From positions 2,108,001 through 2,172,000 of the forward strand of contig NZ_CP084260.1 in the NCBI RefSeq assembly GCF_022879575.1: a stretch of 64,000 nt of DNA, in the 5' to 3' direction. The stretch's first letter is position 1; each line of letters starts with the position of its first letter. Below, in pieces: positions 1,060-25,534 of the stretch. The notes beneath the pieces were generated by a model. It searched no databases. It was not told the origin of the DNA and saw nothing but the letters and a program-made list of their open reading frames with translations. The DNA comes from Caballeronia sp. SL2Y3 (GTDB taxonomy: Bacteria > Pseudomonadota > Gammaproteobacteria > Burkholderiales > Burkholderiaceae). The position numbers and the translations under genes were made by a program.

Positions 1060-3167
<2,108 letters not shown>

Positions 3168-3396: not shown

Positions 3397-4677
3397 CTAT
3401 TCGGCGAGCAGTGAAGGCTGGTCCGGTGTGGCATTGTTGACCGTCAGAGCCAACGGTGGACCTTGGAGGACCTCCTTAGGCGCCGATGTTGCCGGTGCTC
3501 CGGTCTCGGCGGCGTTTGCAGGCGTTGCAGTCGGCAACGGGCCGCCTTTTGCAAGTATCCGATAAAACGCCTGCCTGGAGATTTTCAGGCGCTTTGCCGC
3601 CTCTGATTTGACGCCGTTCGCCGCATCAAGAGCCGCAATCGCCCGCTCGAAAGTCACCACAGGTCGCGATAGGCGCTCCGCCGTCGCGAAGGTCGAGATG
3701 TAGGCCGTCGCCTTCGCTGCAAGGCTATGCCCCGCGGCTTCGACCAGCTGTTGCATGGCCCTTTGATGGAGTTCCGGATCGGGCCGATGATCGGGCAGTT
3801 TGATCGGCGCCGGCACCCCGGTTATATCCTCGTACATCTTCTGGAGGTAAGCGTGGCGCAGTCCGTGAACTGTGACGCCCAAGCCACTACGCGTGATGCC
3901 ATCTTTCTGGAGGACGTGATAGAAATGGCGGTACCACCGCTTGAGCGACCAGGGCTCCGGAACCATTGAGCCGGTGCGCGGATTTGCGAGCCTCGCTGCA
4001 CGGATGAGGACTTCGTACTGCCATTCAGCATCGATCGGCACCAGCCGGGGCCTGCCGCCCTTCGTACCATCGATCACGTGCAGGTGGCCCGAGACGCGCA
4101 GGCACTGCAGTGGACGCAGAAGCATGCTTTCTTGGGCTCGCAAGCCGAACGTCGCTTGTAATTCGACTTGGATGGCGACCCACCGATCATGCTCGCAAAG
4201 CCGCGAGATCACTTCGTTGACGTCGACGTTAGCAGCTTCCCACGACTTATCTTCCTGCGCCACGTAATAGCGGCGATAACCGTCGGGCCGCTTGATGTAG
4301 TCATCGACGGTGCCCACGAGCTGGTGCTTTTTCATCCAGGCGGCGAGCGTGCGCCAGTAGGTCAGTTTGTTTTCGACCGTGCCCGGCGCCTGGTCTTTCT
4401 CCGCGACCCAAAGCTTGACAAGAAAGGCGATGTGCTTTTCGCAAAGATTCCAAGGCGACTGTAATGCGAAGCCGCCCTTTCGCAGTTCGCGGAAGCCGGC
4501 AATCAGATGCCGCACGCGATAGGTCTGCGTCTTGATGGAGATTGCGTTCGACGTGACGCGCGTCGTGCTATGGGGTTTTGAAAGGTGGCGATTGAAAAGT
4601 TCGGCGAGCTCTTTGGTGAGCCGCTGAGGGAGCCCCGCGTTGTCCAACAGGGGTGAGAAACTGAGTTGGATCTTCAT
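3397..4677 (-). CDS. Tyrosine recombinase/integrase with C-terminal HTH
   Basis: A 426-aa site-specific recombinase. Counting from the ATG at 4677, the catalytic residues are R180 in FGLRAQES, H271 and R274 in HGLRHAYL, H317 in AAGHS and the nucleophile Y326 in TAYIST. The first 150 residues form the SAM-like core-binding part. An unusual extra is a Fis-like helix-turn-helix after the catalytic domain (SEAAKRLKISRQAFYRIL), followed by an Ala/Pro/Thr-rich tail. An upstream TTG at 4773 would add 32 residues that do not resemble the family start (MKIQLSFSPLL), so I prefer the ATG; neither has a strong ribosome site. No excisionase, tRNA or clear att core was found beside it. It is either a mobile-element relic or a resident recombinase. 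Confidence 0.8.
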   Translation of the reverse strand: MKIQLSFSPLLDNAGLPQRLTKELAELFNRHLSKPHSTTRVTSNAISIKTQTYRVRHLIAGFRELRKGGFALQSPWNLCEKHIAFLVKLWVAEKDQAPGTVENKLTYWRTLAAWMKKHQLVGTVDDYIKRPDGYRRYYVAQEDKSWEAANVDVNEVISRLCEHDRWVAIQVELQATFGLRAQESMLLRPLQCLRVSGHLHVIDGTKGGRPRLVPIDAEWQYEVLIRAARLANPRTGSMVPEPWSLKRWYRHFYHVLQKDGITRSGLGVTVHGLRHAYLQKMYEDITGVPAPIKLPDHRPDPELHQRAMQQLVEAAGHSLAAKATAYISTFATAERLSRPVVTFERAIAALDAANGVKSEAAKRLKISRQAFYRILAKGGPLPTATPANAAETGAPATSAPKEVLQGPPLALTVNNATPDQPSLLAE

Positions 4678-6212
4678 GACCGTCGCATCAAAGGCGACGT
4701 TCTCACCTATCAGAAGAACGTCCCGGGTTGTAGAAATACTGCACGCTTTGCTTTCCGGGATCTTAGAGATCAAATTTCGATTCGCCCGGCGCAGGGAAGC
4801 ACTGCCGCCTGATGATCCATGCGTCGGATAGACCGAAGCACGGCTACTTGACCGCAGGCGTTAGCCTGTCGAGCCAAGCAATTCCTTTTGCGCTTTTTGG
4901 TATCGGCAGCGCGAGCCGACAGAATGGGATCCAGAAATCCGCACACGAGGTGCAAGTGATTTCCCGTCTTGCGAGCTTGTTCATCACGGCCGCCTCGATT
5001 TGGAACCGCGCGAATCAAGCTTGGCGAGAGTCGCCTTCGACGAAAGGCATAAGTGACGTTCGCACTGTCCGTGCGAAGTTGTTCTCAGACGATGCGAAAC
5101 TGCGTTTCGCTTGCAAAGCCAGTGCTGACGCCGTTCTCCGAGCACTCAGTTTTCGGCACGGCGCACATGGCCAGATCGCAGGGTCACTGCGCGGGCGAAG
5201 AAGGTAGCGTCCGTCGGACGCTATTCGAACAGAAATGTAGTGCGTTGCACTAAGGTCGATGCGTTGGAACGCGGATAGGTGAATTGGATGATGCGCTTTC
5301 TAGCGCCGATTTGGCGGTGGAAAGCTCACGATTTCGATACCCCTTTCGGCCTATGCGCCGGCGCGCATCCTCAAGTACGAGGAGGGCTGCCGCTATAATT
5401 CGGAACCGATGCATCGCCAGTAAACGCCCTTCCGTTCAGCCTTCGTCGCGACCGGCGCTGACTGGGACCTGCCTGGTCAGCCATATCCTGCAGACATCGG
5501 TACATCGGCCTTCAGCGCCGCTTGGTTGTCAACGGTGCTACGTCGATACGCTCCCGGGCATGATCCCAAAGCTTCGGTGCTCGCAGCTTCCGGCGGTCTG
5601 TTCGAAAGCTAGCTCGTTCCCGCATGGTCGTTCCCGTCGTACGACAGTGGTTATGGAGGATCAGTCCAAGCGGTCGACCTTGGCAAGAGCAGAAGGCAAC
5701 TGCACGCTTTCAAGTGCAGCCTTCAGCTTCTGCACATTCCCGTAGGTTAGCGCGAGCAGCACGCGGTAAATGCACTCCCTGACGCGGCAAGTTTTTGCAC
5801 ATTGGAATTATCATGATATAGGCCGATCGGCGAAAAGAAGCGCAAAAACGTTCCCTTTCCGCTGCACGACGCACCCGATTCGTGGTAGGCGATCCTGGGC
5901 GCGCCCATCCTATCTCACTGGGTCGGCATGAGCGGGGAATTGCACCGTCGGCGGTAGAACGACGATGCGAGTTCCCATTCTCATCTTGCCGGGTTTTGGA
6001 ACACCCCTTTCGCAACGGCAAGCCTTCAATAACCATTGCGGAGCTTCTTCCCGACTGTGCCCGGTGCTCGGTCTCGCTGGCTCGGCACCCCTCACCGCGA
6101 GTCGAGCGTTCGACGTGCGTGCAACGAGCCGACGGTGCGGCGATAGACGATCATCAGACGGTCATCGACTCGTGCGCGGTTGCGCTGCGTCGTTCTAATA
6201 AGTACGTCGAGT
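4678..6212. other. Gene-poor stretch between integrase and glycan locus
   Basis: About 1.5 kb with no open frame that resembles a protein family. It contains several short hairpins: TTCGCAC-TGTCC-GTGCGAA near 5059-5077, GCGAAAC-TGC-GTTTCGC near 5096-5112, and AGCGTCCG-T-CGGACGCT at 5206-5222. A short leftward frame near 5697-5830 (containing LTYGNVQKLKAAL) could be the tail of a decayed gene, but I could not name it. Base composition looks less GC-rich than the housekeeping genes further right, which fits degraded mobile DNA. Confidence 0.5.
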
Positions 6213-7649: not shown

Positions 7650-7912
7650 GAGAGTTGAGTTCGATTGAGTTCGGGATCCACAGCGGCTTCGAGTCCGCGC
7701 ATGCCCGCCTATCAGGGCCGGTGGCCGGCATTCTAGCGCGCTGCTGTCCTTCGCCGGCGGTCCCGGTCGAGCGAAGCGCAGCGCATTGCCAGCCGTCGTC
7801 AGCCGCATACCCAGGCACGCCTTGTCGAGCGGCCGACCACAACGACTACAATACGCACGCCGGCGCAGCCCTCGTTCGCCAGCCGCAGCCTTGTACTCAA
7901 TGTCGAGTGTCT

Positions 7913-8866
7913 ATGCTTCAATCCACAAAACCGCTTCGCACCGCTGTCGTCATTCCTTGCTACAACGAGGCCGCTGCGATTGCGACCGTCGTGAGCGACT
8001 TTCGAACAAGTCTGCCGTACGCGGACATCGTCGTGTTCGACAACAATTCGAGCGATGACACCGCCGGCGTCGCACGGAATGCGGGCGCAAGCGTCATATC
8101 CGTCTCGCTGCAGGGAAAGGGCAACGTCGTGCGCAGGATGTTCGCAGACGTCGATGCGGACATTTACGTCATGGTAGACGGCGATGCAACCTACGATGCG
8201 TCGGCGGCACCCGCGCTGATCGAGACGCTTCTTCGCAACCGGCTCGACATGGTGGTCGGCTCTCGCTTGTCCGACGAGCAAACCGCCTATCGCCTCGGGC
8301 ACCGGTTCGGCAACGTGTTGCTGACGCAATGCGCGGCTGCCATCTTCGGCCGGACATTCAAGGACATGCTGTCGGGCTACCGGGTCTTCTCGCGGCGGTT
8401 CGCCCGGAGCTTTCCTGCCCACTCGGCGGGTTTCGAGATCGAGACCGAGTTGACGGTCCATGCGTTGGGCCTGCGCATGCCGGTTGCAGAGATCGTGACG
8501 AACTACAAGTCGCGCCCGGAAGGCTCGACGAGCAAGCTCAACACCTATCGCGACGGACTGCGGATCTTGCTCATGATCGGCAGGTTGTTCAAGTCGGAAA
8601 AGCCACGGGCTTTCTTCACGGCCGGCTTCGTCGTCTGCACGCTGATGTCGGTCGGCTTCGCGATTCCGGTGTTCGAAACCTTCGTCGAGACGGGGCTGGT
8701 ACCGAGGATTCCTACCGTGATCCTGAGCAGCGGCCTCATGCTGCTGGGCGCCATCCTGCTTATTTGCGGCATCGTGCTGGATACCGTCACACGGGGGCGC
8801 AATGAGATGAAGCACCTCGCTTATCTGTCCGTCCCCCCGCTTCCGAGTGAAATCGACAATGACTGA
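7913..8866 (+). CDS. GtrB-like polyprenyl-phosphate glycosyltransferase (GT2)
   Basis: A 317-aa family-2 glycosyltransferase. The nucleotide-sugar fold starts at TAVVIPCYNEA (residues 10-20), with the DxD-type motif DGDATYD near residue 85 and a conserved FKDMLSGYR further on. Two membrane segments close the protein at about residues 230-300. This layout matches GtrB/DPM1-like enzymes that load a sugar onto polyprenyl phosphate at the inner face of the inner membrane. The next gene, a GtrA-like flippase, overlaps its 3' end by 8 bases. The start at 7913 is the first codon that leaves only the GT2 domain; the longer frame adds 86 residues of low-complexity sequence. Confidence 0.85.
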   Translation: MLQSTKPLRTAVVIPCYNEAAAIATVVSDFRTSLPYADIVVFDNNSSDDTAGVARNAGASVISVSLQGKGNVVRRMFADVDADIYVMVDGDATYDASAAPALIETLLRNRLDMVVGSRLSDEQTAYRLGHRFGNVLLTQCAAAIFGRTFKDMLSGYRVFSRRFARSFPAHSAGFEIETELTVHALGLRMPVAEIVTNYKSRPEGSTSKLNTYRDGLRILLMIGRLFKSEKPRAFFTAGFVVCTLMSVGFAIPVFETFVETGLVPRIPTVILSSGLMLLGAILLICGIVLDTVTRGRNEMKHLAYLSVPPLPSEIDND

Positions 8867-9269: not shown

Positions 9270-10946
9270 ATGGATACGACAACGGCAAGCGATCGGACGC
9301 ATAGATTCCGACGCATCGACATGAACAGCCCGCGGTCGCTCATGCGCGCGTCCTGGATCGTTCCGCTGGTTTTCGGCCTGTTCTCCGTGGCTCAGGGCGC
9401 GGACGCCAACTGGGACTTGCGCAACTATCACCTGTACAACGCTTTTGCCTTTCTTCACGGAAGGCTGTCGGTCGACCTGGCTCCTGCTGGTATGCAGAGC
9501 TATTTCAATCCGCTGCTGGACGTGCCGTATTACCTGATGACGATGCATCTGCCGGCGATGCTGGTCGGCTTCATCATGGGGGTCATGCATGGTCTGAACT
9601 TCGTCCTGCTGCTCGGAATCTGCCGTCTCACGCTGGACGATCTGCCCGAGACTGCGAAGTATCGAACGCCTTTCTGGCTCGCGATCGCCGGCTGTCTGAC
9701 GGCCAACTTCCTGTCTGGCATCGGCAACAGCATGGGCGACGACACGACGGCGCTTTTCAGCCTCGGCGCGCTGTACATGCTGCTGAAGGTGTGGCCGCGA
9801 CTGCCGCAGTCCAGCATGCGCGTCATGGCGATGGTGGTGATCGCAGGATTCGTCTCCGGAGCAGGCGCCGGCCTCAAGCTGACGACAGCCGTGTTCTCAG
9901 TCGCGCTCTGCGTCGGACTGCTCGTCGCTCCCGTCTCGTTGCCTAGGCGAGTGTTGACCGCGTTCCTGTTCGGCGTGGGCGTCCTGGCGGGACTCGCGCT
10001 CACTGGGGGATTCTGGTTCGTGGAGATGTGGCATCGGTACGGCAATCCGCTCTATCCGCAGTTCAGTTCCATCTTTCCGAGTCCGCTCACCTCATCGGTG
10101 GCGATCGTGGATACCGTCTGGTTTCCTAAGAACGTGTGGGAATCCCTCGCGTGGCCATTCATATTTTCATTTGATCCGCGCCGTGTCGGACAAGCCCGAT
10201 TGCATCAAGTGATATGGGCTTTGGCTTACGTTTGCTTCTGGTGGTGGGTGGGCGCGCGCGCACTTGGGCGGATTAGACACAAAGAGAGTCCGCCGTTGCC
10301 GTCCCGTGGCCGATACGTCATCGCGTATGTCGCAATCGGCTATGTCGTGTGGATGAAGGTCTTCAGCATTCAGCGCTACCTTGTCTCGATCGAGCTCTGT
10401 CTGCCTCTCGTTATCTATCTGATGCTTCGCCAGACGACGACCTATGAGCGAGCGACCAGGCTAGCCAAGCGAGCATTTATCGCCTGCTCCGTCCTGGTCG
10501 TGGCTGGCGGCGCGCATTCGTGGGGGCATGAACGTTGGTCGGGCAGAATGTTTTCTATCGATCTGCCTCCCCTCTCCGCTGCCGAAAGGACGACGGTCAT
10601 CCTGACCGCCGGCGACCCGCCGCTGGGGTGGCTCGTGCCCCTGTTCCCCGAATCGGTCGCATTCGCCACCATCCGATCAGCTTTTCCCCAAGCGCGGCCT
10701 GCATACGACGAACGGCTTCACGCGATGGCGCGTTCGCGCGGCGGACCGGTGTATGCGCTGATCCCGGCTTATCTGGACAAAGGCGATTACGATTCCGCGC
10801 GAAACGCGCGCGAGATAGCGGACTCGAAGACTGCTCTCGCAGACTATGGCTTCGTGCTCGACGTCGGTTCTTGCAAGCTGTACGACGCCCGGATTGGAGC
10901 GGGCGTCTATCCGTATCAGTGGTGCCGCGTCGCGAGTGCGCGGTAG
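9270..10946 (+). CDS. Polytopic membrane protein, GT-C-like, third Gtr-type component
   Basis: A 558-aa protein with ten or more membrane segments and a soluble C-terminal part of about 110 residues. An early acidic loop (GADANWDLRNYHLYNAF, ending in a QSYFNPL motif) resembles the first periplasmic loop of GT-C glycosyltransferases, where the catalytic Asp usually sits. It follows the GtrB- and GtrA-like genes by 18 bases on the same strand, the place held by the serotype-specific glucosyltransferase in phage-type gtr operons. The role is therefore inferred: transfer of the flipped sugar onto the glycan. An alternative start at 9321 would remove 17 residues. Confidence 0.55.
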   Translation: MDTTTASDRTHRFRRIDMNSPRSLMRASWIVPLVFGLFSVAQGADANWDLRNYHLYNAFAFLHGRLSVDLAPAGMQSYFNPLLDVPYYLMTMHLPAMLVGFIMGVMHGLNFVLLLGICRLTLDDLPETAKYRTPFWLAIAGCLTANFLSGIGNSMGDDTTALFSLGALYMLLKVWPRLPQSSMRVMAMVVIAGFVSGAGAGLKLTTAVFSVALCVGLLVAPVSLPRRVLTAFLFGVGVLAGLALTGGFWFVEMWHRYGNPLYPQFSSIFPSPLTSSVAIVDTVWFPKNVWESLAWPFIFSFDPRRVGQARLHQVIWALAYVCFWWWVGARALGRIRHKESPPLPSRGRYVIAYVAIGYVVWMKVFSIQRYLVSIELCLPLVIYLMLRQTTTYERATRLAKRAFIACSVLVVAGGAHSWGHERWSGRMFSIDLPPLSAAERTTVILTAGDPPLGWLVPLFPESVAFATIRSAFPQARPAYDERLHAMARSRGGPVYALIPAYLDKGDYDSARNAREIADSKTALADYGFVLDVGSCKLYDARIGAGVYPYQWCRVASAR

Positions 10947-11102: not shown

Positions 11103-11816
11103 TCAGATTCGGCGAACGTCCTTCACCCGCCCATGCTCCATCTCGACGATCATATTGCAGAGGTCGTCGATGATGTCCTTGTTATGGGACGCAAGCACCA
11201 GAATGTCCGCATTACCGACGAACTTGGTCATATGTGCTTCCGCCTTCTTCACGAACGATGCATCGCCGACGCTCAGCCATTCGTCCATGAGCAGCACATC
11301 CGCATGCATGCTCGTCACGATGGCGAAAGCCAGTCGCAGCACCATCCCGCTCGAATACGTGCGAACGGGCATCTGCAGATAATCTCCGAGTTCCGAGAAC
11401 TCCGCGATCTGCGGCGTCAGTCGCACCATCTCCGCCTTCGACGCGCCGAGAATGAGGCCGCGAAGCACGATGTTCTCGTAGCCGGTAGCTTCGTAGTCCA
11501 GCCCCAGCGTGAGGTCGAGCAGGCTGGTCACTCGGCCCTTCGAGCAAAACCGGCCCGTCGTCGGCTCGTAGATGCCCGCCAGCATGCGCAATAGCGTCGT
11601 CTTGCCCGCGCCATTATGGCCAACGAGGCCGACCCTATCGCCCGCCTTGATTTCCAGCGTTACATCCCGCAGCGCCTCGACAACTGTGAGCTTCCGGCTA
11701 TTCGCCGCGATGCGTCCGCCAGTGGCGGCGGACAGAACCATTTGTTTCAGCGATCGGTTGCTGGCTCCATAGACCGGCAGGTTAAGGCTGCAGTTACTTA
11801 AGCTAAGAAAGGCCAT
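11103..11816 (-). CDS. wzt: Polysaccharide ABC exporter ATPase, short Wzt
   Basis: A 237-aa ATPase of the Wzt/KpsT/TagH class. Walker A is GHNGAGKTT at residues 66-74, the ABC signature is YSSGMVLRLAF, and Walker B is DVLLMDEWLSVGD. The roughly 40-residue N-terminal lead before the nucleotide fold is typical of this class. It stops right after the nucleotide-binding domain and lacks the C-terminal carbohydrate-binding domain that many Wzt proteins use to recognise a capped chain end. It lies 3 bases downstream of wzm in the same operon and energises glycan export across the inner membrane. Confidence 0.9.
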   Translation of the reverse strand: MAFLSLSNCSLNLPVYGASNRSLKQMVLSAATGGRIAANSRKLTVVEALRDVTLEIKAGDRVGLVGHNGAGKTTLLRMLAGIYEPTTGRFCSKGRVTSLLDLTLGLDYEATGYENIVLRGLILGASKAEMVRLTPQIAEFSELGDYLQMPVRTYSSGMVLRLAFAIVTSMHADVLLMDEWLSVGDASFVKKAEAHMTKFVGNADILVLASHNKDIIDDLCNMIVEMEHGRVKDVRRI

Positions 11817-11819
11817 GCT

Positions 11820-12635
11820 TTAGATCCAGAAAGCGATGCGCGAGCGGAAACGGATGAACAGCGGGATGGCGATCGCGAACAGAACCGCGATGCACGCCGC
11901 TGCCCCCTCGTACAACGACGCGTCCGGCACAGGGCCATAAAGCGGTCCGCGCACGAGTTGGATAAAAATGTACAGTGGGTTCCACTCGGCGAAATAGGCG
12001 CGGTGCCCGAGCGCGTTCGGCTTCCAAAAGATTGGCGTGAGGAAGAAGGCCAGTTGAACCACGCTCCCCACGATCGGCTGCATATCCCTGAAACGTGCGC
12101 AGAAGATTCCCAGAATGAGCGAAAGCGGAACTGCGGCGATGGCGATAAGGAGCAGGCCGGGGATGGCCATGAGCCATTCGACCTTCGGAGAGATGCTGAG
12201 ATACAGCATCACCGGGATGTACGCCAATATGTTATGAGCGAAGAACAGAAAGTTGCGGTAGACACTGCGGAAGATATGCAACGTCAGCGGCAAACGCACC
12301 GACCGCACAATGCTGTCCGCGCCCGTGAAGACGATGCAACCCTCCAGAATCAACGTGGAAACGAGCCCCCACGTAATAATGCCGAGCGCGAGGTACGGCA
12401 CGAAATCTTCAGTGCTGAAGTTGAGCAGCGCACCATAAAGCGGGCCCATTGCCGCAATCGTCACGGCCATCGTCAAGGTAATCCACAATGGTCCCAGGAC
12501 CGAGCGGCGATAGCGTTGCCTGATGTCCTGCCAAGCCAAGGTCGACCAGATGGGAAAGGCCTTGATGCCGTCGACGAGGTCGCGCAGGGCGCGTGAGGCT
12601 CGACCCTCTACCGGCATGTTGGAAGTGTCTTGCAT
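11820..12635 (-). CDS. wzm: Polysaccharide ABC exporter permease Wzm
   Basis: A 271-aa ABC-2 type permease with six predicted membrane helices and the family's amphipathic N-terminus (LAWQDIRQRYRRSVLGPLW). It forms the channel for the undecaprenyl-linked glycan together with the Wzt encoded directly after it. AGGAGG lies about 11 bases before the ATG at 12635. It is read divergently from the two-domain glycosyltransferase gene. Confidence 0.9.
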   Translation of the reverse strand: MQDTSNMPVEGRASRALRDLVDGIKAFPIWSTLAWQDIRQRYRRSVLGPLWITLTMAVTIAAMGPLYGALLNFSTEDFVPYLALGIITWGLVSTLILEGCIVFTGADSIVRSVRLPLTLHIFRSVYRNFLFFAHNILAYIPVMLYLSISPKVEWLMAIPGLLLIAIAAVPLSLILGIFCARFRDMQPIVGSVVQLAFFLTPIFWKPNALGHRAYFAEWNPLYIFIQLVRGPLYGPVPDASLYEGAAACIAVLFAIAIPLFIRFRSRIAFWI

Positions 12636-12927
12636 GTGAGCCTGTTTCCTCCTGAATGCTTAAAAGTCCGCGAGCTGCGACGAACCGCGCGTGAACACGG
12701 GGTCACCTGCCTCCAGTAGCGACGTTTCGCGGATAAGGCCACACATTGTAAGTGGGGGATGGCGGTTTCCAACGACGCCGCCAACTCAAGGCGACTGAGC
12801 GACCGTCCTATGGTTGCGCAGGTTTGCTGAAACCAAAATTCTACCTCAGTCATCCGCTCGGCCGTCCGCCAAAACCTCTGAAGCTATACTACAAGGTTTG
12901 AGCCGAATTCTTCCCGGAGCGTCCCTT

Positions 12928-15093
12928 ATGCCGAAGGACAATGACAACACGTCGCGGTCGCAACCTAGCGGCGACATCGCAGCAACATCGGCAGAGCAGG
13001 TCGCCAGCCCGGAACGAGTCACGGCCGAAGGCGAATACATTGCTGGCGAACAAAAGGCCGCGAGTCGTCACGACCCGCAGAATGTGATTGCGGCCCAAGA
13101 GCGCACCATCGCGCGGCTCCAGGCCGATCTACAGGCCATGCGCGATTCGATGTCGTGGCGAGTGACGGCGCCGCTCAGGATCGGCGTGACTCGCATGCGG
13201 CGCTTGCAGCGGGCACTGAACTCCGTCTCACAGCATCTGCGCATGCGTGGAGGCGTCGGGCCCGCGCTGACACACTATCACGCGATTCTTCGAAGGGAGG
13301 GCTTCGACGGCGTGCGCCGCCGTGCTGTCCGCATCTTGCAACCTACTGCTGGGGACACGTCTCCCGAGGCGTACGCGGCATGGATCCGTCGCCATGACAG
13401 CATCGATGCGGCGAAACGAGCGGAACTAACGGCAGCCGTCGGCCAGTTGAAGTCCCAGCCGCTCATCTCCGTCCTCGTGCCGGTCTATAACAGCGACTTG
13501 CAACTCCTGACCGAGATGATTCAGTCAGTCCGCTCGCAGATCTACCCGCACTGGGAGCTTTGCCTTGCCGACGACGCTTCGACGAAACCGGAGATTCGCC
13601 CGTATCTGGAGCGACTCGCGTCCGAGGATGCGCGCATCAAAGTCGTGTTTCGCGAGCGCAATGGTCATATCTCCGAGGCAAGCAACAGCGCACTCGGCAT
13701 TGCGACCGGAGCTTTCATCGCCCTGCTCGACCATGACGATATCTTGCCCGAGCACGCCCTGTTCATGGTCGTGAAGGCGATCAACGAGCATCCCAAGGCG
13801 CGACTCTTCTATAGCGACGAAGACAAGATCGAACTCGACGGCACGCGGAAAGCGCCTTACTTCAAAAGCGACTTCAACCAGGAGCTTTTCCTCGCGCAGA
13901 ACCTTTTCTCGCATCTCGGCGTGTATGAAGCGGCACTGATCAGGCAGGTCGGCGGATTCCGGCGAGGGTTCGAGGGTAGCCAGGATCACGACCTCGCGTT
14001 GCGTTGTATCGAGGCCGCCGGAAGCGAGGCGGTTCACCACATTCCCCATGTGCTTTATCACTGGAGAGTGACGCCCGAAAGCACAGCAAGCAAGGGAGGC
14101 GCCAAGCCGTATGCGCTGGAGGCGGGGATTCGGGCGGTCAACGAACACCTGGCGCGCATCGGTATCGACGGCAAGGCGGAGCGTCAAGGGCCGGACATCG
14201 ATCTGATTCGTGTTCGCTATGGCGTGCCGACGCCGGCACCGTTGCTTTCGATCATCATCCCCACGCGGGACGGCGTGGAGTTACTTCGCCAATGCATCGA
14301 GAGCATCTTCGCCAAGAGCACCTATCCGCGCTTCGAGGTGATCGTAGTCGACAACGGCAGCGTCAAGACAGAGACCTTTCAATACTTCGATAGCCTCCGC
14401 GTCCGGCCTAACGTGCGAGTGCTCAGAGACGACCGGCCCTTCAATTTTTCGGCATTGAACAACGGAGCGGTCGCGCAGGCGAATGGCGAGTTCATCTGCC
14501 TGCTGAACAACGACATCGAAGTTCTTTCGCCCGACTGGATCGAAGAGATGGTATCGCTCGCCGCTCAGCCGGGGAACGGTGCAGTCGGTGCTTGCCTCTG
14601 GTATCCCAACGACACATTGCAACATGGCGGAATCATTCTCGGCCTCGGGGGAATCGCCGGGCATATGCATTACAAAGCCCCGCGCCATGCCTTCGGATAT
14701 TTCGGCCGCGCCGTGTCGACTCAGAATCTTTCAGCGGTCACCGCAGCCTGCCTTGTCATCCGCAAATCGATATACGAGGCCGTGGGTGGATTGGACGAGG
14801 AACTGGCGGTCGCATTCAACGATGTAGACTTTTGCATTCGAGTACGCGAAGCGGGCCATCGGAACGTATGGACGCCGCATGCATCGCTGTACCATCACGA
14901 GTCCGCTACGCGCGGCTCCGACATGGCGCCCGAGAAAGCCAAGCGTTTCATGAGCGAAATCGGGTGGATGGAAAGCCGTTGGGGAGAATTGCTACTGCGC
15001 GATCCGTTCTACAACCCGAATCTCACGCTGGAAACTTCCGGGCAGCCGTTCGAATTGGCAAGAGAGCCGCGGATCGGGCAATTCGAATGCTAA
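12928..15093 (+). CDS. Two-domain GT2 glycosyltransferase with coiled coil
   Basis: A 721-aa protein with two family-2 domains in tandem. The first begins near residue 178 (PLISVLVPVYNSD) with an aspartate-rich DHDD motif. The second begins near residue 438 (PLLSIIIPTRDG), with CLLNNDIEVL in the nucleotide-sugar site and a late FNDVDFCIRVREAG. Before them is a heptad-like stretch (ERTIARLQADLQAM) joined to SWRVTAPLR, a junction often seen in multi-domain O-antigen glycosyltransferases. The start at 12928 has GGAG nine bases upstream. It probably makes two linkages of the repeat unit or extends the chain. The donor sugars cannot be read from the sequence. Confidence 0.85.
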   Translation: MPKDNDNTSRSQPSGDIAATSAEQVASPERVTAEGEYIAGEQKAASRHDPQNVIAAQERTIARLQADLQAMRDSMSWRVTAPLRIGVTRMRRLQRALNSVSQHLRMRGGVGPALTHYHAILRREGFDGVRRRAVRILQPTAGDTSPEAYAAWIRRHDSIDAAKRAELTAAVGQLKSQPLISVLVPVYNSDLQLLTEMIQSVRSQIYPHWELCLADDASTKPEIRPYLERLASEDARIKVVFRERNGHISEASNSALGIATGAFIALLDHDDILPEHALFMVVKAINEHPKARLFYSDEDKIELDGTRKAPYFKSDFNQELFLAQNLFSHLGVYEAALIRQVGGFRRGFEGSQDHDLALRCIEAAGSEAVHHIPHVLYHWRVTPESTASKGGAKPYALEAGIRAVNEHLARIGIDGKAERQGPDIDLIRVRYGVPTPAPLLSIIIPTRDGVELLRQCIESIFAKSTYPRFEVIVVDNGSVKTETFQYFDSLRVRPNVRVLRDDRPFNFSALNNGAVAQANGEFICLLNNDIEVLSPDWIEEMVSLAAQPGNGAVGACLWYPNDTLQHGGIILGLGGIAGHMHYKAPRHAFGYFGRAVSTQNLSAVTAACLVIRKSIYEAVGGLDEELAVAFNDVDFCIRVREAGHRNVWTPHASLYHHESATRGSDMAPEKAKRFMSEIGWMESRWGELLLRDPFYNPNLTLETSGQPFELAREPRIGQFEC

Positions 15094-15207: not shown

Positions 15208-15750
15208 ATGTTTCAAGCTAATGATTTTCCGTGTGTGTGGCTCACAGGCCTTTCGGGCGCCGGCAAGTCGACGATCGCCAATGGACTGATCGCTGTCTTG
15301 CGAGAAAGCGGCCAGGCGGCGCTTCTGCTCGATGGAGACGTATTGCGTAACGGGCTGAGCCGCGACCTGTCTTTTTCTGTGCAGGATCGCGCCGAGAACG
15401 TACGGCGCGCCGCAGAGATTGCGCGCCTCGCGGCCGATGCCGGGATCGTTCCGGTGGTTGCGCTTATTTCGCCGTTGCGGTCTGAACGCGCACGCGCAAA
15501 GGACATCGTCGGCGACAGTCGCTTTATCGAAATTTTCGTCGACACGCCGTTGACATTATGTGAGGCACGCGATCCGAAGGGTCTGTACGTGCAGGCGCGC
15601 AAAGGCGCCATCAAGGAATTCACCGGAATCAGCAGCCCCTACGAAGCGCCGGAATCCCCAGACGTACATCTGTCGACTGAGGGCTCCAGCCCCGATCAGT
15701 GCGTTCAAGCGATCATGAACCACCTGGCTCGCCGCACCCGCAAAAACTAG
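15208..15750 (+). CDS. cysC: Adenylylsulfate (APS) kinase CysC
   Basis: A 180-aa kinase that phosphorylates APS to PAPS, the sulfate donor of sulfotransferases. The P-loop GLSGAGKST lies at residues 14-22, followed by DGDVLRNGLSRDL and the C-terminal KEFTGISSPYEAPESP, all family marks. The length is that of a stand-alone CysC with no CysN fusion. It sits inside a glycan locus and converges on a sulfotransferase gene 7 bases away, not in an assimilatory cys operon, so a dedicated role in glycan sulfation is likely. Confidence 0.93.
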   Translation: MFQANDFPCVWLTGLSGAGKSTIANGLIAVLRESGQAALLLDGDVLRNGLSRDLSFSVQDRAENVRRAAEIARLAADAGIVPVVALISPLRSERARAKDIVGDSRFIEIFVDTPLTLCEARDPKGLYVQARKGAIKEFTGISSPYEAPESPDVHLSTEGSSPDQCVQAIMNHLARRTRKN

Positions 15751-15757
15751 CGCTGAA

Positions 15758-16582
15758 TCAAGCGGTCTGATTCACCGGATCCGCTTGGCGGTTCTCCTCG
15801 ACTCTTGCCTGCGTATCCGCGACGACGTCATGCAAACCGGCGGCGTCGTCTTGTGAGACTGACGTTTCGCCGGTCGTCCCGTAGAAGTTTGCCGTCGCGA
15901 GCAATCGATAGTCGTCTGCGAATCGCTTCTGGATCAGATCCACGAGGTACGGGTCGCGGAAGCTCTCGGGCGACGGATATTGACCGCAAACCATCTTGAA
16001 GCCGACGAAGGCTTCCCCAGGCACGTCGAATACGTCTTCCCCAATGTTGAGTTGTGAATGCGTCGCATGCGGCGCGAAGTTCCGCAGCTCGATGGATCGA
16101 AGCAAAGGATGCATCTTCCATTGGTCTTCGAGTCGGCGCATCTCGAGGACGACGGTGGGTTGCTCACCGCCAAGGAACGACGACTGGCTGCGCCAGTGCA
16201 TATCCAGTTGTTCGTCCGGAAAGGACGCGAGGTGCACCACGAATTCGCGGAAAGTGATGGAAGTGCGCCAATCCGGACGTTGGCGCTTTCTTTGCGCGCG
16301 CCATACGTAATCGAGCAGTTCGTGAACGAACAACTCTTCCGCAAGTATGTCCGTCAGTTTGTTCAGATACGCGGAAACCGCGCGCTCGAAAGGATCGCGC
16401 AACACTGCGATGCACGGCCAGTCTTTCGCCCCTTCTTGTGCGGCTTCGAAGCGGGCACCGAACTGATGCGGATGCGCCCCATTAATGACTGAATGCCCGA
16501 GGCTATTCATAACCGTCGAACACGCGTTTTTGGGGATGCGGATGAACCTGAGCTTGTGCTCGGGAAAGTAGAGGATAGTCAT
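15758..16582 (-). CDS. PAPS-dependent sulfotransferase family protein
   Basis: A 274-aa cytosolic protein with the two PAPS-binding marks of sulfotransferase family 2: a 5'-phosphosulfate loop IRIPKNACSTV at residues 14-24, and a 3'-phosphate motif VLRDPFERAVSAYLNK at about 60-75, where Arg and Ser contact PAPS. It is the last gene of the leftward rml-to-glf run and faces cysC. The likely role is sulfation of a sugar in the exported glycan before transport. The acceptor is unknown. Confidence 0.85.
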   Translation of the reverse strand: MTILYFPEHKLRFIRIPKNACSTVMNSLGHSVINGAHPHQFGARFEAAQEGAKDWPCIAVLRDPFERAVSAYLNKLTDILAEELFVHELLDYVWRAQRKRQRPDWRTSITFREFVVHLASFPDEQLDMHWRSQSSFLGGEQPTVVLEMRRLEDQWKMHPLLRSIELRNFAPHATHSQLNIGEDVFDVPGEAFVGFKMVCGQYPSPESFRDPYLVDLIQKRFADDYRLLATANFYGTTGETSVSQDDAAGLHDVVADTQARVEENRQADPVNQTA

Positions 16583-16616: not shown

Positions 16617-17540
16617 CTACATAATCGGCGGCTTTCCTGCTTTATCAGATATTACGAAAGGGCCCATTCGCTTGGCCCATCCGTCGCGGATGCCGCGCGC
16701 GGACATTCGCACGTGGCGAGAACCGTCCGGGATAAAAAATGCGTAAATGAGCAATCTGAAAGGAAGTTTGACCGCTTCGGTCGTCTTCCATGTCAAAGGT
16801 ACGTCTCGACGGCGAAGGAGGTAGATTGCGTTACGAAACAAATAGTAATGGCGAAGCGGAGAATGCATTGGATAGTTTCGCCCGAGGACACGAACCGGCG
16901 CCTCCCCCAATTCATGAACCATTCTCACCCAGGGCAGCCCCAATAACCGGTACCCTCGCGTACGGGCGCGCATGCACCATTCCGTGTCGACGAAATCAAT
17001 AAAGAGACCGTCGTCCATTGGACCGATCTCATCCCACAGCCGCAGATTAATGCACGATCCGGAGCTTATTAAAAAATCGACATCGATTGGCGAATTACCG
17101 GCCGGCTCTACGCGCTGGAGCCTGAAATAACCAAAGCGAACGAAGGGCGCAACTCCGCGCAGGCGTGGATCTTCGTAAGCTGGGCCGACAAGCGCCACTT
17201 TGGCGTCGAGACGACGCGATGCATCCAGCGCGCGGTACAACTCGTCGATCAGTGACTCGGTGACGGAACTGTCCTGGTCAAACAGAATCGCCGCGTCGTG
17301 ACCACGCTTTTGTAATTCCGCGACGCCCTGATTGATCGCCGTCGCAATGCCGACGTTTGCACCGTTGGCCACATAGACGACGCCGGAGTGCAGCTTGGCT
17401 GCCACGTCGCCGTTCAGATCGGACAAGGGCGTGTTGTCGACGACGACGCACTCGCACCATTGCGCGATAGCATTGGCGCGTGCGATGCATTCGGAGTCGG
17501 GGTGATAGAAGACGACGACCGCGCCGCAGTGGGCGATCAT
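16617..17540 (-). CDS. Rhamnosyltransferase-like GT2 glycosyltransferase
   Basis: A 307-aa GT2 enzyme resembling dTDP-rhamnose-using transferases. Features are AVVVFYHPD at the start, VVVDNTP, ILFDQDSSV where the metal-binding acidic motif lies, and the late FIDFVDTEWCMRARTRGYRL typical of rhamnosyltransferases. Its start codon overlaps the rmlD stop (ATGA), so it is made together with the enzyme that finishes dTDP-rhamnose. The substrate is inferred from family and context. Confidence 0.8.
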   Translation of the reverse strand: MIAHCGAVVVFYHPDSECIARANAIAQWCECVVVDNTPLSDLNGDVAAKLHSGVVYVANGANVGIATAINQGVAELQKRGHDAAILFDQDSSVTESLIDELYRALDASRRLDAKVALVGPAYEDPRLRGVAPFVRFGYFRLQRVEPAGNSPIDVDFLISSGSCINLRLWDEIGPMDDGLFIDFVDTEWCMRARTRGYRLLGLPWVRMVHELGEAPVRVLGRNYPMHSPLRHYYLFRNAIYLLRRRDVPLTWKTTEAVKLPFRLLIYAFFIPDGSRHVRMSARGIRDGWAKRMGPFVISDKAGKPPIM

Positions 17541-18418
17541 CGCTGGCTTATGCAGAGCGTGAGGGCCTCCCGCCAGTCCTGTGGCACCGTGCCGAAGGTC
17601 GCGCGCAGCTTCGAGGTATCTAGCCGGGAGTTAGCAGGACGCACCGCGCGAGCGGGATATTCCGCGCTTGTGATGGGGCGCAGGCGCGCCTTATCGAGGT
17701 TCGCCAACTCGAAGATTGCCTGCGCGAAGCCGAACCACGACGTCTCGCCCGCCGCAGCGAAATGGTATAAGCCGGCGTGTTCGTCGCCCCATTCGGGACG
17801 CGAGAGTGCTTGAGCCAACACCTGGCTTGTCATTGCAGCAATCGTCGACGCGCATGTCGGCGCGCCAATCTGATCGGATACGATCGAGAGCTCGTCGCGT
17901 TCGGTCGCGAGGCGCAGCATCGTTGTGAGGAAGTTCTGGCCGCGATTGCTGTATACCCAGCTCGTACGGAAGATCAGATGGCGACACCCGCTCGCCGCGA
18001 CTGCCTGCTCCCCTTCCAGCTTGGTGCGTCCGTAGACGTTCTGCGGATTGGGCTCATCCTCTTCCGTATAGGCGCCTGCCTTCCGGCCGTCGAAGACATA
18101 ATCGGTCGAAAACTGAACCAGCAGCGCGCCGAGTTTTTTTGCCTCTTCGGCCATGACCGCCGGCGCGTGTGCATTGACGTCGGCCGCCGTCGCCGTTTCC
18201 AGTTCGGCTTTGTCGACGGCTGTATACGCTGCCGGATTGACGATCACCGCCGGGCGGAACTCGCTCACAACTTGACGAATGCTGTCAGGGTCGGACAGAT
18301 CCATTACCGATCGGTCGGCAGCGACAATCCGCCCCAATCCTTGCAGCGAACGCAGCAGCTCGAAGCCGAGCTGGCCGCGCACGCCGGTCACCAGAATCAC
18401 CCTATCCGAAGACGCCAT
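17537..18418 (-). CDS. rmlD: dTDP-4-dehydrorhamnose reductase RmlD
   Basis: A 293-aa short-chain dehydrogenase that reduces dTDP-4-keto-L-rhamnose to dTDP-L-rhamnose. The NADPH motif TGVRGQLGFELLRSL is near the N-terminus, with NPAAYTAVDKAE and STDYVFDG in the middle and the YGRTKLEGE active-site Tyr/Lys. I chose the ATG at 18418 (MASSDRV) because the 14 residues before it lie outside the family alignment. It is separated from rmlBAC by three galactofuranose-type genes, an unusual split of the rml set. Confidence 0.93.
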   Translation of the reverse strand: MASSDRVILVTGVRGQLGFELLRSLQGLGRIVAADRSVMDLSDPDSIRQVVSEFRPAVIVNPAAYTAVDKAELETATAADVNAHAPAVMAEEAKKLGALLVQFSTDYVFDGRKAGAYTEEDEPNPQNVYGRTKLEGEQAVAASGCRHLIFRTSWVYSNRGQNFLTTMLRLATERDELSIVSDQIGAPTCASTIAAMTSQVLAQALSRPEWGDEHAGLYHFAAAGETSWFGFAQAIFELANLDKARLRPITSAEYPARAVRPANSRLDTSKLRATFGTVPQDWREALTLCISQR

Positions 18419-18506
18419 TCTCTCGATCCCACAATCTAGTCTTTCACAGTTCGCATTCACTGGACACGCGGTAGCAGAACGCTACAGCCGCCTTGACCGC
18501 TTGGTC

Positions 18507-21531
<3,025 letters not shown>

Positions 21532-21598: not shown

Positions 21599-22540
21599 TC
21601 AGCGACTCTGCAAGACTTGCGTCTGCTTTCTGGCCCATTCCAGCGTGCGGCCAATGCCCTCCGTGATGGAAACCTTCGGAGACCATCCCAGGCGCTGCTT
21701 CGCTTTCGAAATATCCAGGACATTGATGGGCTGATCGACCTTGCGCGACGGCGTGTAGTTGACCTGGAAGTCGAGGCCACACTCGTTCTTGAGCAGATCA
21801 ACGATTTGCGCGAGGCTAAGACCAACACCGGAACCGATGTTGAAGACGTCGTTGCGCGCTTCGCTCGTGGCGGCTATCCCGATCGCTCTGATCACATCGG
21901 CGATATACACATAATCCCGCACCACGGAACCGTCACCCCATATCTCCAGCGGGGCGTTCGAGAGTATCTTGCCGATGAAATTCGCAATCACGCCCTGATT
22001 GGCGTGCAGGCGCTGCCCGACGCCATAGGGATTCGCAAGGCGAATGACGTTGTATTCGAGGTCGTGGAGCTTTTGATACAGCGACAGATAATGCTCGACG
22101 GTCTTTTTGACGATACCGTAAGAGCACGAGGGAGCGCCGTGCATGTCCTCGGTGATCGGGACGGAGTGCGGGCCGCCGTAGACGGTTCCGCCCGAGGAAA
22201 GGTACACGATGCGCCCCACGCCAGATTGGCGCATGGCTTCGAGCAATTGGATGGTCCCGATGAGGTTCGTCTCGATGTCGAACGTCACCTTGTCGTTCGA
22301 GTTCGCCGGGCCGACACTCGATGCCAGATGGAAACAGACATCGACATCGACGAGGGAGTTCTGCATCACGACGGGATCGAAATACTTGCCGTAGATCGTC
22401 GTGACGTTCTCGGGTGGAAGCGGAATACAGGGCACCGCTCCCTCGATATCGACGATCTTGACGTGCCAGCCCTCAGAGACCAGATAGTTAGCCAGATGAG
22501 AGCCGATGAAGCCGAATCCGCCCGTAATGAGTGCGTTCAT
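21599..22540 (-). CDS. NAD-dependent sugar epimerase (UDP-glucose 4-epimerase-like)
   Basis: A 313-aa extended SDR enzyme. The NAD motif is GGFGFIGSHLANYL, the catalytic Ser lies in YLSSGGTVYGG and the Tyr/Lys pair in SYGIVKK, and DYVYIADVIRAI with FNIGSG follows. This pattern fits GalE-type 4-epimerases. Its place between rmlC and the DUF4422-GT8 and glf genes suggests it makes UDP-Gal for Glf. Other UDP-hexose or UDP-HexNAc epimerizations are possible. Confidence 0.85.
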   Translation of the reverse strand: MNALITGGFGFIGSHLANYLVSEGWHVKIVDIEGAVPCIPLPPENVTTIYGKYFDPVVMQNSLVDVDVCFHLASSVGPANSNDKVTFDIETNLIGTIQLLEAMRQSGVGRIVYLSSGGTVYGGPHSVPITEDMHGAPSCSYGIVKKTVEHYLSLYQKLHDLEYNVIRLANPYGVGQRLHANQGVIANFIGKILSNAPLEIWGDGSVVRDYVYIADVIRAIGIAATSEARNDVFNIGSGVGLSLAQIVDLLKNECGLDFQVNYTPSRKVDQPINVLDISKAKQRLGWSPKVSITEGIGRTLEWARKQTQVLQSR

Positions 22541-22710: not shown

Positions 22711-23262
22711 TCAGTCGAAGACTTCGGCATCCAGGAACGCTTTGCCGGCTGCATCCTTGGCCGCGAGCATCGGCTCGAAGTCGATGGGCCACTCGATGCC
22801 GATAGTCGGATCGTCCCAGCGAATGCAGCGCTCGTGCTCGGGATACCAGAAATCCGTTGTCTTGTAGAGAAATTCCGCGGCTTCCGTGAGTACGACGAAC
22901 CCATGTGCGAAGCCAGGCGGAACCCACAATTGACGATGATTCTCGGCGCTGAGTCGTACTCCTGTCCATTTCCCAAAGCTTGGGGAACTGCGGCGAATGT
23001 CGACAGCAACGTCGAATACCTCTCCTTCGACTACCCGGACTAGTTTGCCTTGGGGATGCTTTATCTGGAAGTGCATGCCGCGCAACACTCCACGCGCCGA
23101 CCGCGAGTGATTGTCTTGCACGAACGTCACGCCGGGCTGGACATGCTCCGCGAACTCGCGGGCATTGAAGCTCTCGTAAAAGAAGCCGCGCGCGTCGCCG
23201 AACACTGCCGGTTCGACGATTTTGACATCCGGCAGCGACGTGGCGCTTACTGTGATGGTCAT
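22711..23262 (-). CDS. rmlC: dTDP-4-dehydrorhamnose 3,5-epimerase RmlC
   Basis: A 183-aa cupin enzyme of the dTDP-L-rhamnose pathway. Visible marks are [32 protein letters not shown] with the catalytic His, [16 protein letters not shown], and [11 protein letters not shown]. The start at 23262 overlaps the rmlA stop (ATGA). The longer frame to 23388 would only add noncoding-looking residues overlapping rmlA. Confidence 0.95.
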
Positions 23263-24140
23263 GCGACTTTGTCGGTAGAGAGGTTTCGAAGGTATTGACC
23301 GTAAGCGTTCTTCGCCAGCGGGGCCGCCAGCGCAAGTAACTGCTCCGTAGTGATCCAGTTGGATCGATAAGCAATTTCTTCTGGACACGCGACGACGAGT
23401 CCCTGACGCTTTTGCAGCGTCGCGATGAAGGTTGCCGCTTCGATCAGTGAATCATGCGTGCCCGTATCGAGCCACGCATAGCCACGTCCCATGATCTCGA
23501 CGTCTAGTTTCTGCTCTTCCAGATAGCGCAGATTGACGTCTGTTATTTCGAGTTCGCCTCGCGGCGAGGGTTTGATATCCGACGCAATGTCGCAAACCTT
23601 GTTGTCGTAGAAATACAAGCCCGTTACTGCGTAATTCGAGCGCGGCTTCGCCGGCTTCTCTTCGATCGAAAGCGCGCGAAACTGCTCGTCGAATTCGACG
23701 ACGCCGTAGCGTTCCGGATCATGCACGTGATATGCAAATACCGTTGCACCGTCTGTCCGCGCATCGGCGCTCGCCAGCTGCTTGGCGAGATCGTGACCAT
23801 AGAAAATGTTGTCGCCCAAAATGAGCGCGGAAGGATCGTTGCCCACGAATTCCTTGCCGATGATAAACGCCTGCGCCAGCCCGTCAGGCGAAGGCTGCAC
23901 GGCATACTGGATATTCATGCCCCACTGGCTGCCATCGCCGAGCATCGACTCGAAGCGGGGCGTATCCTGCGGAGTCGAGATGACGAGCACGTCCCGAATG
24001 CCCGCAATCATCAACGTCGACAGCGGGTAATAAATCATCGGCTTGTCGTACACGGGCAGCAGTTGCTTCGATACCGCATGCGTGATCGGATAGAGCCGCG
24101 TGCCGGAACCGCCGGCGAGAATAATGCCTTTGCGCGCCAT
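23259..24140 (-). CDS. rmlA: Glucose-1-phosphate thymidylyltransferase RmlA
   Basis: A 293-aa nucleotidyltransferase that makes dTDP-glucose. The signature [20 protein letters not shown] lies at the N-terminus with [14 protein letters not shown] after it, and the metal-binding [10 protein letters not shown] follows. The length is normal for the family. It begins 9 bases after rmlB and overlaps rmlC, so all three are cotranscribed. Confidence 0.97.
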
Positions 24141-24149
24141 GCCTGCTCC

Positions 24150-25211
24150 TTATGCCCGCTGCGCGTAATTCGTCTCGACCCACTTCCGGTATTCGCCGGA
24201 AGCGACTTCGTCGGCCCACGCCTGGTTGTCGAGATACCACTGAACGGTCTTCGCGAGACCCGTTTCGAACGTTTCTGCCGGCTTCCAGCCGAGTTCGCGT
24301 TCGAGCTTGCGCGCGTCGATCGCGTAACGGCGGTCGTGTCCCGGGCGATCCGTCACATACGTGATCTGATCGCGATACGAACCGCTTGCCTTGGGTTTCT
24401 TCTCGTCGAGCAGATCGCAAAGGGTGTGCACGACTTGGAGATTCTTCTTCTCGTTCCAGCCGCCGACGTTATACGTCTCGCCCGGCTTGCCTTTGGCCAA
24501 CACCTCGCGGATGGCCGCGCAGTGGTCGCCGACATAAAGCCAGTCGCGTACGTTCTGCCCGTCGCCGTACACCGGCAGCGGCTTGCCCGCGAGCGCATTT
24601 GCAATCATCAACGGGATCAGCTTTTCAGGGAACTGATACGGGCCGTAGTTGTTCGAGCAATTGGTCGTGAGAACCGGCAAGCCGTACGTGTGGTGATACG
24701 CCCGCACCAGATGGTCGGAACCCGCTTTGGTCGCGGAATACGGACTGTTCGGCGCGTAAGGCGTGGTTTCGGAGAACTGCGGATCCGTTGCTGACAGCGA
24801 ACCGAAGACCTCGTCCGTCGAAACGTGCAGGAAGCGAAACGCCTCTTTCTCCGATTCGGGGAGCGCGTTCCAATACATGCGCACAGCTTCGAGCAGCGTG
24901 AAAGTGCCGACGACGTTCGTCTGCACGAAGTCTGCCGGCCCGTGGATGGAACGATCCACATGACTTTCGGCCGCGAAGTGAACGATGGCGCGCGGCTTGT
25001 GCTTCGCGAGTAGTTCGTCCATTGCGGTGCGGTCGCAGATGTCGGCACGCACGAACACGTGACGGGCGTCGTCTTTCAGCGATTTCAAGGTGCCGAGATT
25101 CCCGGCGTACGTCAACTTGTCGACGTTGAGTACCGGTTCGTCAGAGCCTTCGAGCCAATCCAGGACAAAATTGGCGCCGATGAAACCGGCGCCGCCCGTC
25201 GTAAGAATCAT
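24150..25211 (-). CDS. rmlB: dTDP-glucose 4,6-dehydratase RmlB
   Basis: A 353-aa extended SDR enzyme. It has [12 protein letters not shown] at the N-terminus, the catalytic STDEVFGSL with Thr-Asp-Glu, and the Tyr/Lys pair in [12 protein letters not shown]. The ATG at 25211 begins directly at the Rossmann strand; the 38 extra residues of the longer frame have no family match. AGGG lies 8 bases before it. It is the first gene of the long leftward glycan run, so the promoter should lie in 25212-25534. Confidence 0.97.
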
Positions 25212-25534
25212 AAATACCCTTTGGCTGCTTTCAGTTTGTTGACTGACAGCACACGCGAATATGTGAAAAAAATGCGCATGAGGCGCAAACGCGACGCGCC
25301 TTACCGGCATGTGTGACCGACTCACAAGGCAAGGCAGACGTCTGGCAAGCCGCCATTATAAGGCCAGCGAATGCAAAAACTACATGGCTAACAACTTGAT
25401 ACAGCTAGGATTCGCCTCCGGAACGCGTCAAAACAGCGGTGCGGCGACAGGGTTCAACGCGCGCTTCATAATGTCCAGGACTACCAGCACACAGACTGTT
25501 CTTTGCGCGTCGTTCCTGCGATGCCACCCTACTG
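25212..25534. promoter_or_regulatory. Intergenic region between rmlB and apaH
   Basis: A 323-base divergent gap that must hold the promoter of the rml-to-sulfotransferase run (leftward) and of apaH (rightward). I see an A-tract near 25265 and a GC-rich inverted stretch around 25270-25300, but no clear -35/-10 pair and no JUMPstart/ops element of the GGCGGTAGC type. Confidence 0.4.

Follow-up and report, generated by a model that had tools for sequence, protein, structure and literature searches.

A sulfotransferase accompanied by galactan genes suggests a sulfated D-galactan-I-like O-antigen in Caballeronia sp. SL2Y3

Background

In a polysaccharide locus of Caballeronia sp. SL2Y3, a gene for an adenosine 5'-phosphosulfate (APS) kinase lies beside a gene for a predicted sulfotransferase that would use the kinase product, 3'-phosphoadenosine 5'-phosphosulfate (PAPS), raising the question of what this pair sulfates. 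We studied the locus in a 64,000-nucleotide stretch of contig NZ_CP084260.1 (positions 2,108,001 to 2,172,000), hereafter the window; feature coordinates count from its first letter. The original prediction took the two genes for a sulfation module producing a sulfated O-antigen or capsule. On the observed gene identities, their genome-wide uniqueness, conserved gene company and purifying selection, we favour a D-galactan-I-like O-antigen that would be sulfated in the cytoplasm from PAPS on galactose and then exported by Wzm/Wzt, a reading to which we assign a probability of roughly 0.6.

The kinase and sulfotransferase genes are intact, unique in the genome and under purifying selection

The APS kinase gene (15208..15750, plus strand, ATG start) encodes a stand-alone CysC-type protein of 180 aa, predicted to make PAPS. 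Its open reading frame (ORF) scored 197.7 bits against PF01583 (cut-off 21.1) and 212.5 bits against TIGR00455 (cut-off 138.7), and alignment with the solved APS kinases 3uie and 2pey showed that the P-loop and the other motifs of those enzymes are kept. The predicted PAPS-dependent sulfotransferase gene (15758..16582, minus strand, ATG start, 274 aa) ends a minus-strand run begun by rmlB; it scored 57.6 bits against PF03567 (gathering score 22) and matched no NCBIfam profile. Both ORFs are intact and stand tail to tail with a 7-bp gap, flanked by a GT2 glycosyltransferase gene and a TIGR01556 rhamnosyltransferase gene, which agrees with the arrangement first described. The motifs PKNACS and RxPxxRxxS, which we take to be the PAPS-binding motifs, were invariant in all 20 aligned sulfotransferase rows. 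Structural comparison ranked glycan O-sulfotransferases first among the neighbours of the enzyme; a sequence search of solved structures returned a single, uninformative match (E 0.63), and the plasmid matches of the sulfotransferase comprised eight records, each below 34% identity.

Across the whole genome (5.51 Mb, five contigs), these two genes account for the one PF01583 and the one PF03567 match, and profile searches for PF13469 and PF00685 gave no match. Compared with the copies in Caballeronia sp. GAFFF1, the ratio of nonsynonymous to synonymous substitution rates (dN/dS) was 0.114 for the sulfotransferase and 0.116 for the kinase; both genes are under purifying selection. Together with the rhamnosyltransferase (0.087), they showed the lowest constraint among the 11 genes compared.

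The sulfotransferase is accompanied by galactan genes

When the species-genome collection was scanned with a pattern, 57 stretches came back, 13 of them encoding a relative of the sulfotransferase. Six are close relatives (45–90% identity), from Caballeronia sp. GAFFF1, Paraburkholderia sp. DHOC27, Burkholderia sp. MS389, Jannaschia pohangensis, Pacificibacter maritimus and Paracoccus sp. M683. Adding the window and genome G279 gives a set of eight loci, five from Burkholderiaceae and three from Rhodobacterales, counted apart from further relatives such as those in Caballeronia sp. LZ025 and Paraburkholderia sp. HC6.4b. Since the eight include two near pairs, they represent about six independent cases. 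In every one of them, a GalE-like gene, a full-length WbbM homologue and Glf are found no more than about 6 kb from the sulfotransferase. For the remaining seven of the 13 (L011–L017, 23–29% identity), excluded from this count, tblastn (E≤1e-8) with wbbM, glf and the GalE-like gene gave no match in the 7.5–20.8 kb examined.

In the window, all three companions are on the minus strand. The WbbM homologue (19675..21531, 618 aa) joins a DUF4422 domain (PF14393, the galactofuranose (Galf) transferase in WbbM) to a GT8 domain (PF01501, the galactopyranose (Galp) transferase in WbbM), and its residues 3–573 matched the solved 6u4b "WbbM protein" (E=1.1e-110). Glf, the UDP-galactopyranose mutase that makes UDP-Galf (18507..19841), scored 310.1 bits against TIGR00031 (cut-off 303.75); because its longest ORF overlaps wbbM by 167 bp and the TIGR00031 homology begins only at residue 65, translation probably begins at a later position inside this ORF. 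The GalE-like protein (21599..22540), a probable UDP-Glc/UDP-Gal 4-epimerase, has the UDP-glucose 4-epimerase 4zrm as its closest solved relative (E=4.3e-58) and scored 144.5 bits against TIGR01179, under the cut-off of 262.3.

The kinase, by contrast, adjoins the sulfotransferase in only two of the eight loci, the window and Caballeronia sp. GAFFF1. The pair, for which the original prediction proposed a search in other glycan loci, is thus ruled out as the conserved unit, which is instead the sulfotransferase with the GalE-like, WbbM and Glf genes. An APS kinase is nevertheless present in the genomes of all six named relatives. Its distance from the sulfotransferase is about 31 kb in DHOC27 and about 90 kb in MS389, with about 80 kb in G279. 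In the three Rhodobacterales, it occurs on contigs other than that of the sulfotransferase, and the length of its open frames there, 598–637 codons, suggests CysN-CysC fusions; Paracoccus sp. M683 has an additional, weak APS kinase match. Around the distant kinases of DHOC27, MS389 and G279, 10 of 47 ORFs were run against Pfam, yielding no sulfotransferase or glycan gene and four ORFs without a match.

This company bears on the acceptor. Sulfotransferases act on varied acceptors, and the substrate here could be a small molecule, a glycolipid or another compound unrelated to the O-polysaccharide; with O-polysaccharide genes alongside in all eight loci and glycan O-sulfotransferases leading the structural comparison, we regard this as very improbable. 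The sulfate could also go to another residue of the same glycan, the likeliest being rhamnose of an adaptor or side chain. The sulfotransferase gene follows 34 bp after the rhamnosyltransferase gene upstream of it (16617..17540, minus strand; TIGR01556, 202.9 bits, cut-off 200.55), whose product is probably the adaptor glycosyltransferase, and sulfate is carried by rhamnose in the capsule of Cobetia marina KMM 1449 (Rhap2S) and in the Vibrio sp. KMM 8419 model, according to the available portions of those reports (PMC11766843, PMC11641403). However, the rhamnosyltransferase is not common to the eight loci, giving no tblastn match (E≤1e-8) in those of Jannaschia, Pacificibacter and Paracoccus, and in two Burkholderia loci the sulfotransferase adjoins galE-wbbM-glf while wzm-wzt separates it from the rhamnosyltransferase; we consider sulfation of such another residue unlikely. 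A more specific proposal is that the sulfotransferase, GalE-like, WbbM and Glf genes form a mobile four-gene cassette common to Burkholderiaceae and Rhodobacterales, that the sulfate is placed on the Galf-containing galactan itself and that the enzyme represents a separate sulfotransferase subfamily specific to galactan, for which we would give slightly less than even odds.

The kinase most likely serves sulfation alone

An APS kinase may also serve sulfur assimilation. The two PF01507 matches of the genome fall at 592.6–594.2 kb of contig 1, and the kinase-sulfotransferase pair, at 2.12 Mb, is some 1.5 Mb away, bearing out the earlier observation that no assimilatory cys genes are near. One is CysH, which scored 293.1 bits against TIGR02055 (thioredoxin-dependent APS reductase, cut-off 235.3) and 143.9 bits against the PAPS-reductase type TIGR02057, below its cut-off of 254.2, so that PAPS-type assimilation is not indicated; its sequence holds a CC pair and a CxxC pair. 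The second match is presumably CysD. CysN is a stand-alone protein, and the assimilation genes have no APS kinase among them. APS reductases bypass PAPS. Given a CysH of the APS-reductase type, assimilation should therefore have no need of PAPS, which makes a dedicated role in sulfation the best reading of the kinase. A CysQ-like PAP phosphatase was represented by one match of 90.8 bits, below the TIGR01331 cut-off of 228.8, as was likewise the case in 12 of 14 control genomes.

We then considered a sample of 398 genomes of the GTDB family. APS kinases (E≤1e-20) are frequent, occurring in 204 of them, which leaves room for a kinase that serves assimilation and has come to lie beside the sulfotransferase by chance. 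Against this, all 30 genomes with any PF03567 match (E≤1e-3, many of them weak) also carry an APS kinase (hypergeometric 6.4e-10, uncorrected for kinship). On the CysH type and the distance of the kinase-free assimilation genes, we ruled out that the kinase serves assimilation, and a chance neighbourhood seems scarcely credible. In at least eight of the 30 genomes, the PF03567 match and the APS kinase are within 30 kb of each other, a lower bound because kinase positions are known for part of the 30. Of 58 genomes in the genus, 21 encode an APS kinase (E≤1e-25); in the two that carry this sulfotransferase it is the kinase of the window (100 and 91% identity), and the other kinases are 45–56% identical.

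The sulfotransferase subfamily is rare in the family (4/398) and APS kinases are not. The earlier expectation of rarity in Burkholderiaceae thus holds for this enzyme and fails for the machinery at large. Two other genomes have weak PF03567 matches close to an APS kinase, about 0.1 kb away in G238 (contig C19, ~50.7–51.6 kb) and about 1 kb away in G370 (contig C7, ~17.5–19.3 kb), suggesting that other sulfated products are made in Burkholderiaceae.

WbbM loci occur with and without the sulfotransferase

Among the same 398 genomes, WbbM (E≤1e-60) was found in 11 and the sulfotransferase subfamily (E≤1e-20) in four, all of them within the 11. The four sulfotransferase-linked WbbM proteins are 60–100% identical to the query, the seven unlinked ones 33–41%. 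The seven unlinked loci (19.5 kb each) gave no sulfotransferase match and no GalE-like match above 25% identity. The order wzm-wzt-wbbM-glf, presumably that of Klebsiella D-galactan I, is absent from the window and kept in six of the seven; the seventh (G048) has a remote protein and no glf match. One of the loci with this gene set (L050) is in a genome of 1.2 Mb (G034), where the set is retained despite the small genome size.

In a tree of 28 WbbM proteins, a starred branch (98/97) split the eight linked rows from the seven unlinked ones. On the linked side stand five alphaproteobacterial rows whose sulfotransferase status is not established (two Brucella, Rhodobacter capsulatus, Paenirhodobacter and Acetobacter syzygii), and an exclusive clade of the eight linked rows was rejected (p-AU 4.6e-5). 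A plausible history is that a galactan-sulfation cassette was exchanged between Alphaproteobacteria and Burkholderiaceae and that the sulfotransferase was lost or separately gained. The GalE-like gene is with the sulfotransferase in all eight loci, yet in the seven unlinked ones it had no match above 25% identity; a sulfated galactan would have no obvious need of an epimerase of its own, and the enzyme may make a different sugar.

The surrounding locus fits a D-galactan-I-like O-antigen

The minus-strand run reads, in order, rmlB (24150..25325; TIGR01181), rmlA (23259..24140; TIGR01207), rmlC for dTDP-4-dehydrorhamnose 3,5-epimerase (22711..23388; TIGR01221), galE-like, wbbM, glf, rmlD for dTDP-4-dehydrorhamnose reductase (17537..18460; TIGR01214), rhamnosyltransferase and sulfotransferase, the four Rml proteins each scoring above the cut-off of the profile given. 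On the other side, the GT2 glycosyltransferase gene (12814..15093, plus strand), with two stretches matched by PF00535, precedes the kinase by 114 bp in the same orientation. The exporter genes lie beyond it on the minus strand. The sole NCBIfam match of the Wzm-type permease (11820..12635; PF01061) of the ATP-binding cassette (ABC) transporter was the galactan export permease NF050109 (251.7 bits, under the cut-off of 380), and the top NCBIfam match of the Wzt-type ABC ATPase (11103..11816; PF00005) was galactan export NF050108 (279.5 bits, under the cut-off of 400), both cut-offs being equivalog-level. Because of the WbbM match, Glf, the GalE-like relative and galactan-exporter families as best, though sub-cut-off, Wzm and Wzt matches, the locus fits a D-galactan-I-like O-antigen backbone.

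In the pathway that we infer, which extends to the activity of both enzymes, the acceptor sugar, the timing of sulfation and ligation to lipopolysaccharide (LPS), the chain would probably begin on a rhamnose-containing adaptor, and the WbbM homologue would build an alternating Galf/Galp backbone from UDP-Gal and from UDP-Galf supplied by Glf. The core ATP sulfurylase would supply APS, which the adjacent kinase would convert to PAPS, and the PF03567 enzyme would move sulfate from PAPS to a galactose hydroxyl while the chain is still cytoplasmic on its lipid carrier. The sulfated chain would then be exported through Wzm/Wzt and ligated to the LPS core.

Wzt bears on a different role, in which the sulfotransferase would cap the non-reducing chain end and stop elongation, with no decoration of the repeats. 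In known systems, a C-terminal module of Wzt reads such caps, and the 237-aa Wzt of the window, in which a Pfam search saw PF00005 alone and no further domain, seems to be without one. The timing would suit a cap, as the O-polysaccharide polymer is finished in the cytoplasm in this export pathway. A pre-export terminal modification, a terminating pyruvate, is described for Klebsiella O1 in the available text of one report (PMC11231755). Weighing both sides, we find capping quite improbable and retain sulfation of galactose within the repeats.

Further genes lie beside the locus. IS21-type genes comprise an IstB-like gene (1060–1926) and a transposase-like gene (1923–3167), followed by an integrase-like ORF (3397–4773). 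Between 6213 and 10946, a DUF2142 membrane protein (minus strand), a GT2 protein resembling polyprenyl-phosphate sugar transferases (7655–8866, plus) and a 558-aa ORF without a family (9270–10946, plus) are candidates for a second set of glycan modification genes; each has a relative in Caballeronia sp. GAFFF1, at 80–94% identity.

Discussion

Taken as genomics, the sulfated-glycan reading is well supported. A sulfated O-antigen remains the best reading of the locus, given the sole kinase, the sole PF03567 protein, the CysH type, the structural neighbours and a gene company found in two bacterial classes; the part of the original prediction that did not survive is the pair as a unit. What is gained over that reading is a likely backbone and the true conserved unit.

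The locus resembles that of Klebsiella pneumoniae O2a D-galactan I in its near-full-length WbbM homologue, its UDP-galactopyranose mutase and a Wzm/Wzt exporter in which no further domain was seen, and adds to it the sulfotransferase, the GalE-like gene, the APS kinase and the rml set. NodQ offers a precedent for an APS kinase serving a sulfated glycan, in rhizobial Nod-factor sulfation, where the acceptor is a lipo-chitooligosaccharide. The best plasmid matches for the kinase included NodQ and CysN records (54–57% identity among the matches listed), although NodQ is annotated as a fusion with sulfate adenylyltransferase and the kinase of the window is stand-alone. The accessible parts of two papers describe sulfated polysaccharides of marine bacteria whose clusters contain genes for PAPS synthesis and sulfotransferases (PMC11641403, PMC11766843). 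The window shares this grouping within a glycan cluster, for the kinase step only: the clusters of Vibrio sp. KMM 8419 and Cobetia marina KMM 1449 hold cysD and cysN, and their capsules consist of rhamnose with glucose or mannose, whereas the backbone genes here are galactan-type. In the available portion of a report on Plesiomonas shigelloides O12, a D-galactan I backbone bears a non-sugar substituent as Galf2OAc (PMC5751175), a likeness of structure, with O-acetyl in place of the sulfate proposed here. The "sulfotransferase" of PMC10269572 is a phage CysH-family gene and was not used. Among the papers listed by searches of one open-access library, which lacks most subscription papers, none pointed to a sulfated D-galactan I in its title or the opening of its abstract.

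If the reading is true, one of the best-studied O-antigen backbones would bear a negative charge, with the responsible gene named, and the sulfotransferase would be a candidate enzyme for sulfating galactofuranose-containing glycans. The four-gene cassette, carried by Jannaschia pohangensis and Pacificibacter maritimus, would also provide a gene signature predicting sulfated galactans in some Rhodobacterales. For Caballeronia, the O-antigen matters for symbiosis: in the part of a study of bug symbionts available to us, LPS and O-antigen are reported to aid resistance to gut antimicrobial peptides at first colonization, the O-antigen being lost after the symbiont is established (PMC11893276). 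Close relatives of the sulfotransferase occur in Caballeronia sp. LZ025 and GAFFF1, and while these two are not among the strains that the same text names as tested symbionts of leaf-footed bugs, other LZ-numbered Caballeronia strains are (PMC11893276). A second paper, PMC13403611, mentions neither LZ025 nor GAFFF. A sulfated galactan would add charge to a surface polymer that matters in this bacterial group for life with its hosts.
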